64,000 nt of DNA from Fibrobacter sp. UWH4. Its GTDB lineage: Bacteria; Fibrobacterota; Fibrobacteria; Fibrobacterales; Fibrobacteraceae. The notes beneath the pieces are model-generated. The model did no database searches. It had not been told where the DNA came from and was given only the letters and a program-made list of their open reading frames with translations. The translations under genes and the position numbers were made by a program. This document shows positions 7,984 to 42,364 of this stretch, piece by piece (the stretch's first letter is position 1; every line of letters starts with the position of its first letter). The DNA lies in assembly GCF_900142475.1 (NCBI RefSeq), contig NZ_FRAY01000002.1, positions 310,001-374,000 of the forward strand. Reading direction: 5' to 3'.

Positions 7984-7989
7984 TATATT
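7984..7989 (+). promoter_or_regulatory. Candidate -10 element for thrC
   Basis: TATATT 27 bases before the thrC ATG, leaving a short leader that includes an AGAGGA ribosome site at about 8006-8011. Prediction by eye; no convincing -35 was seen. Confidence 0.4.
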
Positions 7990-8015
7990 TGTGCCGTAAA
8001 AAACTAGAGGATATT

Positions 8016-9356
8016 ATGGCTCAATTCAATGCCCATTTTAGGAACATCAACGGGGACGACACCTACCCGCTGACCGACGTCATTTACAGGAGCAAGGTGG
8101 ACGGCAGCCTGCTCGAAGTCGAACATGACCGTGCAGCACTTGCTGAGAAGAGCCCCGAAGAATGGAAGAAGCTCTTTGCCGAACGCCGCATGAGCTTTGA
8201 ACCGGCCGACATGAGCGGCATCTGGAGCAAGCGCGAAATGGTGCTCCCCGACATGCCCCTCGAAGACATCGTGACGATGCGCGAAGGCTGGAGCCCGCTC
8301 TTTGACGCAGCCCCGCTGGCCAAGGAAATGGGCATCAAGAGCCTGAAGGTGAAGCTCTGCGGCAACTCCCACACGGGCAGCTTCAAGGACCTCGGCATGA
8401 CGGTCCTCGTGAGCCAGGTGAACCACATTATCAAGAAAAAGATTCACGAAATCGACGCCGTGGCCTGCGCCTCTACCGGCGACACCTCCGCAGCTTTGAG
8501 CGCCTACTGCGCGAAGGCCGGCATCCCGAGCATCGTATTCCTCCCCGCCGGAAAGACGAGCGTTGCCCAGCTGATCCAGCCGATTTCTAACGGCAGCATC
8601 GTGCTCGCCCTCGACACCGACTTTGACGGTTGCATGAAGATTGTGCAGCAGGTCACCGCCGACAACCGCATCTACCTCGCCAACTCCATGAACAGCCTCC
8701 GCGTGGAAGGCCAGAAGACGATTTCTCCGGAAATCTGCCAGGAAATGGGCTGGAAGGTGCCCGACACCGTGATTATCCCGGGCGGAAACCTCGGTAACGT
8801 GAGCGCCCTCGCGAAGGGTTTCGAAGACTGCAAGGCCATGGGCCTCATCGACCGCATTCCGCGCATCATCGTCGCCCAGGCCGAGAACGCGAACCCGTTC
8901 TACCAGGCTTACGAACGCGGCTTCGACAAGCTCGTTCCAATGCAGGCGAAGAAGACACTTGCAAGCGCCATCCAGATCGGTAACCCGGTCAGCTACCCGA
9001 AGGCCGTGCGCGCCATCCAGAAGACGAACGGCATGGTCGTGAGTGTTTCCGAAGAAGAACTCGCGAACGCCGCCCACCGCGGTGACCGCATCGGTCTCTA
9101 CTGCTGCCCGCATACCGGTGTGGCCCTCGGCGCGCTTGAAAAGCTCGTAGCCGCAGGCAAAATCGACAAGGAAGAAAACGTGGTCGTCATCAGCACGGCA
9201 CACGGCCTCAAGTTCACCGAATTCAAGGTGGGCTACCACGAAAAGAAGCTCGAGAATATCTGCTCCAAGTTCGCGAACCCCGTGTTCAAGGCTCCGGCAG
9301 ACCTCGGCGCCGTCATGGACATCTTGAAGAAAGAGATGGCTGAACGCAGAAGATAA
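8016..9356 (+). CDS. thrC: Threonine synthase
   Basis: Makes threonine from O-phosphohomoserine with pyridoxal phosphate, the last step of threonine synthesis in the cytoplasm. The 446-residue product carries 'SHTGSFKDLGM', where K124 is the expected PLP Schiff-base lysine, then 'ACASTGDTSAALSAYCAKAG' (phosphate and PLP contacts) and 'IIPGGNLGNVSALAKGF'. Length fits the class. I placed the start at the ATG at 8016 because AGAGGA sits just upstream; an in-frame TTG at 7989 overlaps the presumed -10 region. It stands alone and ends in a strong intrinsic terminator. Confidence 0.93.
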   Translation: MAQFNAHFRNINGDDTYPLTDVIYRSKVDGSLLEVEHDRAALAEKSPEEWKKLFAERRMSFEPADMSGIWSKREMVLPDMPLEDIVTMREGWSPLFDAAPLAKEMGIKSLKVKLCGNSHTGSFKDLGMTVLVSQVNHIIKKKIHEIDAVACASTGDTSAALSAYCAKAGIPSIVFLPAGKTSVAQLIQPISNGSIVLALDTDFDGCMKIVQQVTADNRIYLANSMNSLRVEGQKTISPEICQEMGWKVPDTVIIPGGNLGNVSALAKGFEDCKAMGLIDRIPRIIVAQAENANPFYQAYERGFDKLVPMQAKKTLASAIQIGNPVSYPKAVRAIQKTNGMVVSVSEEELANAAHRGDRIGLYCCPHTGVALGALEKLVAAGKIDKEENVVVISTAHGLKFTEFKVGYHEKKLENICSKFANPVFKAPADLGAVMDILKKEMAERRR

Positions 9357-9429
9357 TTCGGATTTCAGAATTCGGATTTCGGAATTAATATCTCTGAACA
9401 AAGCCGAAGGATTCCTCCTAAAGAATGTA

Positions 9430-9455
9430 GCTCCGCATAAATGCGGAGCTTTTTT
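9430..9455 (+). terminator. Intrinsic terminator of thrC
   Basis: Nine-base perfect stem GCTCCGCAT / ATGCGGAGC with a 2-base loop, followed by six T residues. It lies 74 bases after the thrC stop. Confidence 0.85.
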
Positions 9456-9556
9456 GCACATGACCGAGCCGAAGAGTTAGCTTTATTTTTGCGGCCTTGA
9501 GTCTTTTGGAAAAAGACCGGTTCCCAAGGCGAGAGAAGCGGCAATGCTTGCATTGC

Positions 9557-9629
9557 CATTTCCGAGCCGCTGATCGGCTGAAAGACATGTTCGCAGACCG
9601 AGCGTCGCGACCGTGCTTGCACGGGCATG
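9557..9629 (+). repeat. 73-bp direct repeat, copy 1
   Basis: Matches 9805-9877 at 72 of 73 positions. It contains AGCCG-CTGAT-CGGCT and CCGTGC-TT-GCACGG hairpins (9565-9579 and 9611-9624). Confidence 0.95.
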
Positions 9630-9804
9630 GCCGACCCCAGAACAGGCGTAGAAAAGGCCGTAAGGCGAGCGCAGCGGCGGCAAACAAGTTTGCCGACATT
9701 GCCGAGCCGAAGAATTTGCTGTAAGACTAACACATAAGACGAGATTCTTACTCTTGTAAAAAGACTAACTCGTAAGGCGAGAGACGCGACCGTGCTTGCA
9801 CGGG

Positions 9805-9877
9805 CATTTCCGAGCCACTGATCGGCTGAAAGACATGTTCGCAGACCGAGCGTCGCGACCGTGCTTGCACGGGCATG
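9805..9877 (+). repeat. 73-bp direct repeat, copy 2
   Basis: Second copy of the repeat at 9557-9629, with one difference (CCAC for CCGC). Its CCGTGC-TT-GCACGG hairpin is at 9859-9872, and a further copy of the same hairpin precedes it at 9790-9803. Confidence 0.95.
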
Positions 9878-9895
9878 ACCGAGGTCCAGAACATG

Positions 9896-9930
9896 CTTTA
9901 TTTACGCGCCATCGAGGCGCGTAAATAAAG
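9896..9930. terminator. Perfect 15-bp palindrome, possible bidirectional terminator
   Basis: CTTTATTTACGCGCC and its exact complement are separated by ATCGA. It is followed at once by a second hairpin (AAAGGC...GCCTTT, 9931-9957). No long T run follows, so it may be a structured RNA element rather than a terminator. Confidence 0.5.
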
Positions 9931-10155
9931 AAAGGCCCCTCTTACGAGGAGCCTTTCCTAAGAAGGAGAAAATATGAATCGGTATGTGGAACCTTGAACC
10001 TACCAGGAGGGGAGCAATGATAGTGTCGTTTCAGGATTTACCCTTCTACCGTTTCACAATTCCAAATATATCCTTTTATTTCGAACCGAGAACTACCAAA
10101 TTGCTTATTTTCTTAATCCGCAACAATTACATTCGTATTGCAAGTAAACTAACAT

Positions 10156-11454
10156 TTACTCTTCGTGGAAAATGATCTTGCACTTCGGAACAAAACGGAA
10201 TCCACCACGACGGTGACGTTCGATTTCGAAATACTTCTTCACGCCTTCGGACGGATGTTCCGGATCGTCAGAGCCGTTGATATGAGCAATGACGCGGTTC
10301 AAGCGGCTTTCGAAGTTCGGACGAAGCGGATCCATGCAAATGGAAGAATCGCGCTTGAATTCACGGTTTTCAAATTCTTCACGGCCCGTAGCGCTGTACT
10401 CGCGAAGCAGGTTGCGCAGGATTCGTGCAGGCACGTTACGCATCAGGTGCTTACTGTTCACTGAAATAGAATCATCGCTCTTGTAGTAGATGACCGTCAC
10501 GGAGTCGTTCATCGCTTCAAGGAGCTGTTCCTGAGCCTTCTGGATCGGTTCCCAGGAATCGAATTCCTGCTTCACGACGGCGCTCATGAGCTTGTTGAAC
10601 GGCTCCGGAGCGACAACGTTTGCCTTATAATCAAAGTAGACCACGCTAGCCGGTGCGCCGTAATAGCAACCCTTATGAATCAGCACGGCACCCACCTTTT
10701 CGTCGACCACATCTTCGGTGGCACGGATGCAGGCCATCTTGCGTTCGGCGTCGAACTCCCAGTCAAGGCCATATTCGTCAAGGCAATCGCCGAAGGTCAT
10801 GTACTTACCGACCTGACGGCCATTCACATAGACACAACCATCATCGCGTACTTCAGCCGTCGCACGGTTTTCGAGAGCTTCAGCAAAAGAGGTCTGGCTG
10901 GCCTTGTATTCGATCAATTCGTAGCGAGGGGTATTCAGGAAAATGGGACCCAACTGCACCAGGCCGTTGAACCAGCGCATGGGGTTCGTGATCAAAAGAC
11001 CCGGAGAATCAAAACGATAGGTGAAGTATTCCTTGCGGTTACCATCCACCAAATCACGGCGGAGGAACTTCGAGTTCGTGAGCAAGGGATAGCGCTTCGG
11101 AATAATGTCAAGGCAGAGCTGACGGACATCTTCGGTCGCATAGAACTGCGATACATAGGGCAGGTAGGAGCGCAACACGCTACGAGCAGGGACTGCCTCG
11201 AACGACGCACAGCGGTCTATAATATTTTGAACAAAGGTATCCGGGTTTTCGCCCCTTTCATAGAGCCAGTTCACCACATTGTTCATAATCAATCGGTGAA
11301 TGCCTTCATCTACAGACAAATCTTCGAAATAGATGTCATTAAGAACCTTGACCGTAAAACGCGGATCGCGTTTGATGAGAGTCAAAATATCCTTGACGGG
11401 ATACTTAATGAGTAACTCGATATGAGTCAGCTGTAAGAATAGGTTTGAAAGCAC
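10156..11454 (-). CDS. Conserved-looking protein of unknown function, possible C-terminal winged helix
   Basis: 432 residues, no signal peptide, no membrane segments. I do not recognise the family. The first ~110 residues are helical ('HIELLIKYPVKDILTLIKRDP'). The middle is mixed alpha/beta. The last ~90 ('FESRLNRVIAHING...KKYFEIERHRRGGFRFVPKCKI') resemble a winged-helix DNA-binding fold with a basic wing, as in response-regulator effector domains. That suggests nucleic-acid binding but is weak evidence. It starts with GTG; a GAGG site 7 bases upstream supports it. It is divergent from mutL with a 112-bp gap. Confidence 0.7.
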   Translation of the reverse strand: MLSNLFLQLTHIELLIKYPVKDILTLIKRDPRFTVKVLNDIYFEDLSVDEGIHRLIMNNVVNWLYERGENPDTFVQNIIDRCASFEAVPARSVLRSYLPYVSQFYATEDVRQLCLDIIPKRYPLLTNSKFLRRDLVDGNRKEYFTYRFDSPGLLITNPMRWFNGLVQLGPIFLNTPRYELIEYKASQTSFAEALENRATAEVRDDGCVYVNGRQVGKYMTFGDCLDEYGLDWEFDAERKMACIRATEDVVDEKVGAVLIHKGCYYGAPASVVYFDYKANVVAPEPFNKLMSAVVKQEFDSWEPIQKAQEQLLEAMNDSVTVIYYKSDDSISVNSKHLMRNVPARILRNLLREYSATGREEFENREFKRDSSICMDPLRPNFESRLNRVIAHINGSDDPEHPSEGVKKYFEIERHRRGGFRFVPKCKIIFHEE

Positions 11455-41964: not shown

Positions 41965-42364
41965 CTTGTAAATTACTTGACAATTCGGGAGTTTGCAGAA
42001 CCAATTCAGCTCAGCCATGACAATTCGTGCAAGCACGATTGTCACGGCATTCGCCTTTTGGGGTGTTAGGGGACGGAGCCCCTTAGGCGAGAGGGTGACG
42101 GAAGACTTGCCCTAGATCCTGCTCCTACGAACCTAACTCAACTAAGGCTACAAGTAGCCAAGTTTCGTATATCGACTTCGCCCTACGGGCTTCGCTCAGG
42201 ATGACACGCTCGTAGCTCAGGGTGACAGAAGGGCAAGGCTGCAGGCAGGGGGATGCCTCCCCCCCCCTTTACAATAACCATAGATTCTATCGCTGCGCTC
42301 CAGAATGACTTTTCTAAGCTCTAAGTTCTAAGTTCTGCCAACTAAAAATGCTATCTTTACCCGC
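41965..42364. other. 400 bp without a gene; repeat-rich spacer
   Basis: Contains a near-perfect inverted repeat GACAATTCGTGC-AA-GCACGATTGTC (42019-42043), two copies of the GCTCAGGATGACA element (42194-42207, 42215-42227), a GCCCTACGGGC palindrome, a C-run (42259-42267) and AAGTTCT microrepeats (42318-42336). It marks the island's right edge. Confidence 0.65.
42352..42357 (+). promoter_or_regulatory. Candidate -10 element, leaderless-type, miaB
   Basis: TATCTT, TACCCGC (7 bases), ATG at 42365. No Shine-Dalgarno site. Confidence 0.45.

Follow-up and report, generated by a model that had tools for sequence, protein, structure and literature searches.

A dispersed, covarying hairpin repeat of the genus Fibrobacter, found as an array downstream of a threonine-synthase-like gene

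The hairpin array downstream of thrC

The window analyzed here is a 64,000-nucleotide stretch of the Fibrobacter sp. UWH4 genome (contig NZ_FRAY01000002.1, positions 310,001 to 374,000). Within it, the gene of a PLP-dependent enzyme, probably a threonine synthase and called thrC in the following, is succeeded by an intrinsic terminator and an array of hairpins (Table 1). Five hairpin cores and one right-half remnant, identified by the covariance model R1 together with the sequence, lie within positions 9457–9930. A preliminary description of this locus had recognized two aligned units of a tandem non-coding repeat. Its positions for the stem of unit 1 (9540–9557), the stem of unit 2 (9790–9803) and the shared flanks AAGGCGAGAG and CATTTCCGAGCC are all correct, and the downstream parts of both units are near-identical by eye. 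The locus is, however, not a two-copy tandem RNA, since the stretch contains five cores that belong to a family dispersed across the genome. In fact, the "two units" are a direct duplication of 132 nt (9503–9634 and 9751–9882, 87%), each duplicate carrying two cores, with the fifth core lying between them at 9660. As described, two pairs of the stem are altered on both sides; a further difference had gone unmentioned, in that a third pair, G-C in unit 1, is replaced in unit 2 by an A.G mismatch. Likewise, the palindrome at 9896–9930 is a perfect one of 15 bp, but it is part of the unit, namely its second hairpin P3, rather than a separate element.

The fold of positions 9503–9895 exceeds its own shuffles in stability (z −3.7). 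A terminator scan returned only the terminator 5′ of the array, on both strands, and one weaker minus-strand site nearby. The inverted repeat that follows P3 is absent from this list and is a putative second terminator of the convergent gene pair. The cores themselves lack the character of intrinsic terminators, as they are followed by P1 and P3 sequences and not by runs of T. No family reached its gathering score in an Rfam 15 scan of positions 9000–10400. Directly after the thrC stop, the window also contains a tandem AATTCGGATTTCAG/AATTCGGATTTCGG (9355–9382), and a similar string occurs in locus L020.

Table 1. Features of the hairpin array and its surroundings in the window (+, forward strand; −, reverse strand).
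Feature	Position	Strand	Basis
Upstream gene, PLP-dependent enzyme, threonine-synthase-like (thrC)	7989..9356	+	PF00291, E 3.7e-59
Intrinsic terminator of upstream gene, 5′ of array	9429..9450	+	terminator scan
Isolated right half of core (CACATGACCGAGCCG)	9457..9472	+	sequence; direct-repeat family D2
Core hairpin 1 (unit 1 of the preliminary description)	9524..9570	+	R1 69.2 bits
Core hairpin 2, ACC.../degenerate 3′ end	9593..9639	+	R1 match 9600–9634, 41.2 bits; ends from sequence
Core hairpin 3, longer inner stem	9660..9710	+	R1 57.5 bits
Core hairpin 4 (unit 2 of the preliminary description), one middle-helix mismatch	9772..9818	+	R1 66.5 bits
P1 5′ arm of core 5, CATGTTC	9834..9840	+	sequence; orthologous place in G012 is CATATTC
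Core hairpin 5	9841..9887	+	R1 61.8 bits
P1 3′ arm of core 5, GAACATG	9889..9895	+	sequence; GAATATG in G012
P3 hairpin of core 5, 15-bp perfect palindrome	9896..9930 (arms 9896–9910/9916–9930)	+	direct/inverted-repeat search, fold
Inverted repeat AAAGGCCCCTC-TTAC-GAGGAGCCTTT after P3	9931..9956	.	sequence; fold
Diverged solitary core, elsewhere in window	42006..42059	−	R1 41.0 bits

Core structure, covariation and distribution

The core follows the formula AAGGCGAGnGNNGCG–stem–CNNG–stem–ATNNCCGAGCC. Its shape is fixed and comprises, in this order, XXC/GXX pairs, a tandem G.A in CGAG/CGAG, a bulged base, a GNN/NNC helix, a G.T wobble, a C.A mismatch and a free inner stem that ends in a CTTG-like loop. 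The model R1, for which 13 units were aligned and 12 realigned, represents this structure as XXC / GA.GA / G / bulge / GNNG / C·A / inner stem. Across 12 units of the UWH4 genome, 12 of 17 pairs are changed on both sides while 96% of cells remain paired, and the covariation score of 0.51 compares with 0.16 for shuffles and 0.03–0.07 for slid structures, so that the hairpin structure is not due to chance. Two larger alignments, of 74 distinct rows mostly from sister genomes and of 51 rows from the UWH4 genome, show 96–97% paired cells and changes on both sides in 13–14 of 15 pairs. Their covariation scores exceed those of slid structures several-fold and are three to four times as high as the mean of shuffles, although both alignments were fitted to R1 and are hence biased toward it.

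A direct count at fixed offsets, which does not use the fitted alignment, covers 139 distinct full-length cores. Here, the non-Watson-Crick positions are kept almost throughout (G·A in 133, A·G in 132, G·T in 132 and C·A in 125 cores), and most pairs beside them occur in two to four Watson-Crick types. This bears on the idea that the compensatory changes are a mutational by-product, with template-switch correction perfecting quasi-palindromes independently of selection. Such a process is consistent with the P1 and P3 arms, which are wholly replaced between orthologous thrC copies and still paired, but it should erase the G.A, G.T and C.A mispairs as well as the bulge, which are kept in 90–96% of the 139 cores. 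Since the mispairs persist among covarying neighbors, palindrome correction alone is an insufficient explanation; for the core it is largely refuted, and for the family as a whole it is very unlikely. The fixed mispairs are the strongest argument for recognition of a specific shape, and the folded strand is probably recognized by a protein. The earlier proposal of a selected structure, either in RNA or as a cruciform or REP-like element, is thereby borne out by many copies that covary around fixed non-Watson-Crick positions.

The apical loop reads CTTG in 90, CTCG in 18 and CAAG in two of the 139 cores, and the excess of CTTG over CAAG indicates that one strand is functional. RNA-parameter energies slightly favor the strand given here in all six cases tested. 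Among DNA hairpins, those with C-GNA-G triloops are very stable, and G(CUUG)C is a stable RNA loop, so the loops leave the choice between DNA and RNA undecided. Two other structural classes were rejected on sequence: the cores differ from a kink-turn in that a bulge of 3 nt next to the G·A pairs is missing, and from integron attC sites in that they have neither R/L boxes nor cassettes.

The family is dispersed and structured. The 13-mer GGCGAGMGNMGCG occurs 17 times in the UWH4 genome as opposed to two occurrences of the reversed pattern, and R1 detects at least 50 copies there. The search of related genomes by covariance model, recommended in the preliminary description, revealed copies in 37 of 37 Fibrobacter genomes, with covariation kept; the numbers range from at least six to at least 91 per genome and are lower bounds, as most of the assemblies are drafts and no more than 101–150 candidates were scored in each genome. 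R1 found zero copies in 24 genomes that share the order, class or phylum with Fibrobacter but not the genus. Correspondingly, 79 of 80 among the matches listed by a pattern scan of species genomes are records of Fibrobacter or of its order or class; the single outside match, in Microbacterium, does not form the hairpin and is due to chance. No exact pattern match that would point to phage carriage was found in viral contigs. Genomes G013 and G031 contain bursts of near-identical copies at unrelated sites, which argues for recent spread. The literature searched describes no repeat of this hairpin kind in Fibrobacter, nor did these papers yield one for the phylum.

The larger unit and its insertion sites

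The complete unit of about 70 nt can be written as A-NNAA-core(P2)-A′-P3-(A), where A and A′ are copy-specific complementary arms forming an outer stem, P1, to which the final codons of the host gene often contribute. In 71 non-redundant copies, the two flanks of one copy show better pairing than flanks exchanged among copies (p = 6e-13). The second hairpin, P3, usually has a GNA triloop, most commonly GAA (20 loops); hairpins of at least 6 bp are present in 66% of the 3′ flanks as opposed to 2% of shuffles and 14% of the 5′ flanks. After P3, the sequence preceding the core is frequently repeated directly (p = 4.5e-8; 1.9e-5 when copies preceding another core are excluded). They measure about 7–13 nt and can be clearly discerned in only about one copy in three, as exemplified by GACTGGTAAGG in L047, AGTATYTGTAAGG in L235 and GTGGGARTAA at guaA. 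Slippage plus template switching could also yield direct repeats together with inverted arms. The near-identical cores of five loci (L100, L101, L102, L103 and L105) are nested in a longer repeat whose boundaries are ATGCGCACTAAGG ... CTAAGTGCTGTCC or variants thereof, and a coreless form of this outer repeat lies next to yicC in L193.

At gene ends, orthologous sites come both with the unit and without it. The yicC stop is empty in L203 (...ATATCGCATAATCGCGACAC) and filled in L201 (...ACATCGCTTAA-[67 nt]-ACATCGCATAATCGCGACAC), where the target duplication is clean, and the ileS stop is empty in L154 and filled in L164; these pairs show that the unit was inserted at the stop codon. No consistent terminal inverted repeat is visible by eye at the filled and empty loci compared. 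The empty yicC and ileS sites contain, by eye, no complement of the gene end, which implies that A′ came with or after the insertion. This weighs against the notion that the unit enters the loops of pre-existing hairpins such as terminators, with P1 being the target's own stem: several copies do abut terminator arms (L067, L074 and L113), and in Yersinia dyad symmetries are the targets of YPAL elements (PMC2229807), but with the empty sites lacking the complement such targeting is quite improbable as the origin of P1.

The A′ arm tracks the host gene, as illustrated by ACATTGC/GCAATGT in L212 versus ACATCGC/GCGAGGT in L198, and the match is not absolute, since a coding change in L172 weakened P1 and was not followed by repair. 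It is conceivable, if unlikely, that the element is self-tailoring, with A′ gained at insertion by fold-back synthesis and copied from the flanking gene end; synthesis primed from the element's own hairpin would then generate the order A-core-A′-P3-A. If true, a miniature element would build a host-gene-specific outer stem at each insertion via an undescribed enzyme.

An ileS-like reading frame contains two insertions that follow GGYGA, and the one with a length of 75 nt is in frame. GGYGA was considered as a universal target and rejected, being located exactly at −12 in only 13 of 88 copies, and it marks a subgroup. Some sites, such as ileS, may represent a single old insertion that was kept or lost rather than repeated insertion. 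At thrC, the arrays of G000, G012, G011 and G073 differ in the sequence of their arms but preserve P1 and/or P3 (the arms of the P3 of core 5 differ yet pair in G012, G011 and G073), and G008 and G026 have the same neighbor gene but no core. For G021, an automatic search of this locus gave no segment. In the sister-species locus L139, unrelated GAGCAAGCGCCCGAGCGGTCTC-like palindromic repeats are present twice between thrC and the convergent gene, in the place that the core array takes in the UWH4 genome.

Further observations concern aminoacyl-tRNA synthetase genes. Behind both ileS and thrS lie the remains of another, older tail that encoded a C terminus, and cores interrupt these remains (L116:5160–5560 and L107:4830–5100, in C5 and C1 of the UWH4 genome, as well as L087 and L173). 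The tail that functions in ileS shares only about 67% identity with the usual tail. It looks as if synthetase gene ends were replaced beside hairpin elements. In L032:1501–1547 (C5 of the UWH4 genome, 82.1 kb), a core abuts, in antisense, a leuS-like fragment, which is possibly a truncated leuS copy.

With gene positions taken from a simple hexamer gene caller, 56 of the 84 copies with a call share the orientation of the upstream gene. Among 31 distinct sense sites within 100 nt, 11 lie no more than 3 nt from the stop (p = 3e-6, hand count), and the orientation bias is weak away from stops. Hairpins sit on the stop codons of guaA, ileS, leuS, yicC and the gene of the succinate dehydrogenase iron-sulfur subunit, all named from their translated sequences. 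An element landing on a stop codon would furnish the mRNA with a strong stem-loop at its 3′ end and place the stop codon inside the internal loop that separates P1 from P2. Such a stem-loop might protect the 3′ end and slow terminating ribosomes, as for E. coli REPs near stops: those situated no more than 15 nt from a stop codon reportedly cause ribosome stalling and reduce translation (PMC12306157), and YPAL elements may influence the RNA stability of upstream transcripts (PMC2229807). An effect of gene-end copies on mRNA 3′ ends is proposed tentatively. It could touch mRNA stability and translation termination of housekeeping genes in an important fiber-degrading gut genus.

The family might instead be a regulatory RNA element, that is, a 3′ UTR motif under RNA selection and passively duplicated. 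Its strand-specific features (CGAG/CGAG, CTTG in 90 versus CAAG in two cores, a loop of the G(CUUG)C type), the sense orientation at stops and the presence in each of the 37 genus genomes searched would agree with this. No conserved host-gene set is apparent, however, orthologous sites vary among species, and copies also occur in antisense, within reading frames and in near-identical bursts at unrelated sites, which makes the regulatory reading rather unlikely. The array is best explained as a genus-specific, high-copy, non-coding Fibrobacter hairpin repeat that is a non-autonomous DNA element (probability roughly 0.7), and comparison of sites strongly supports an element that is mobile or was so recently.

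Candidate mobilizing enzymes and relation to known repeats

As a non-autonomous element, the repeat would spread as DNA, most likely through an enzyme beyond those found here, which would recognize the folded strand shape-dependently through its fixed mismatches. The UWH4 genome has no match to PF01797 (Y1/RAYT) and none to PF00078 (reverse transcriptase), the latter being present in 12 of 41 genus genomes; a retro-element moved by a reverse transcriptase of its own genome was accordingly rejected. Y1 proteins occur in 20 of 61 genus genomes. Three from sister genomes score 139–148 bits as IS200 transposases (cut-off 55) and 32–38 bits against the RAYT model (cut-off 80), which excludes these three as RAYTs, and a core is near only one of ten Y1 loci.

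REPs are imperfect hairpins scattered between genes, in which certain positions are consistently left unpaired, and some of them lie just after stops (PMC12306157). The Fibrobacter repeat is likewise a high-copy, dispersed, imperfect palindrome with conserved non-pairing positions, as in REP, BIME and REPIN families; its foot, however, is NNAAGGCGAG and not a GT[AG]G tetranucleotide (definition in PMC6006769), it has direct target repeats, and a RAYT flanked by repeats was not found. The preliminary description had named a simple REP-type distribution next to a RAYT gene as the alternative to a selected structure: the dispersed distribution is indeed present, but the copies covary and there is no RAYT gene. 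A true REP/REPIN family whose mobilizing RAYT, a Y1 HUH transposase, was lost from the genome would account for size, copy number, intergenic spread, the fixed-mismatch hairpin and the nearness to stops. Hairpins with a CnGA foot flank class 3 TnpA genes (PMC6006769), and this foot is faintly like the CCGA/GCGA seen here. Against a lost RAYT stand its absence here together with the IS200 identity of the three tested Y1 proteins, the lack of a GTAG/GTGG foot and the direct repeats of about 7–13 nt, leaving it quite unlikely. To our knowledge, target direct repeats are not expected from Y1 transposition (IS200/IS605). Miniature IS200/IS605 elements resemble the present family in their subterminal hairpins recognized as single strands, and several Fibrobacter coding-region insertions follow GGYGA; in contrast, target duplications occur here, Y1 genes are absent from the UWH4 and most sister genomes, and the cores are unassociated with them. 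As for MITEs, target-site duplication is significant overall and clean at yicC but clear in only about a third of copies.

The repeat thus behaves like a REP and comes nearest to YPAL in behavior, but two tested features that define REPs are missing from it. YPAL elements are small and not A+T-rich, have internal rather than terminal inverted repeats and variable-size target duplications, insert at or next to dyads, are expressed with upstream genes and show filled and empty sites (PMC2229807). The internal inverted repeats, variable target duplications and filled and empty sites of YPAL and RU-2 are all found here, a likeness in behavior. YPAL, however, measures about 168 bp and has an open reading frame, whereas the Fibrobacter unit has about 70 nt, two hairpins, arms that are specific to each copy and complement its target, a preference for stop codons and a range restricted to Fibrobacter. 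Rickettsia palindromic elements (RPE) are genus-restricted palindromes able to enter reading frames (PMC2229807), but they measure 105–146 bp and have terminal inverted repeats; here, the in-frame case concerns a remnant resembling ileS, and the stop codon is the site mainly occupied. We read the Fibrobacter family as a new, genus-specific form of the known small mobile hairpins that resemble REP and YPAL. Dozens of naturally occurring structural variants, together with matched filled and empty sites, make a long-standing question, the spread and possible RNA action of RAYT-less palindromic repeats, directly testable in this small, exceptionally covarying hairpin family.

Other repeats are present as well. 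A second dispersed family, GCGTTAGGGATAGTGACCC ... TATAGCCCGACCC ... GGGAACGCCC, is found in L024:20–200, L017:200–380, L025:160–330, L027:260–330 and L087. Finally, tandem TGTCACCCTGGAGCGAGTG...CTCCAGAATGACA repeats follow guaA in L019:340–560 and presumably resemble repeats from other phyla.
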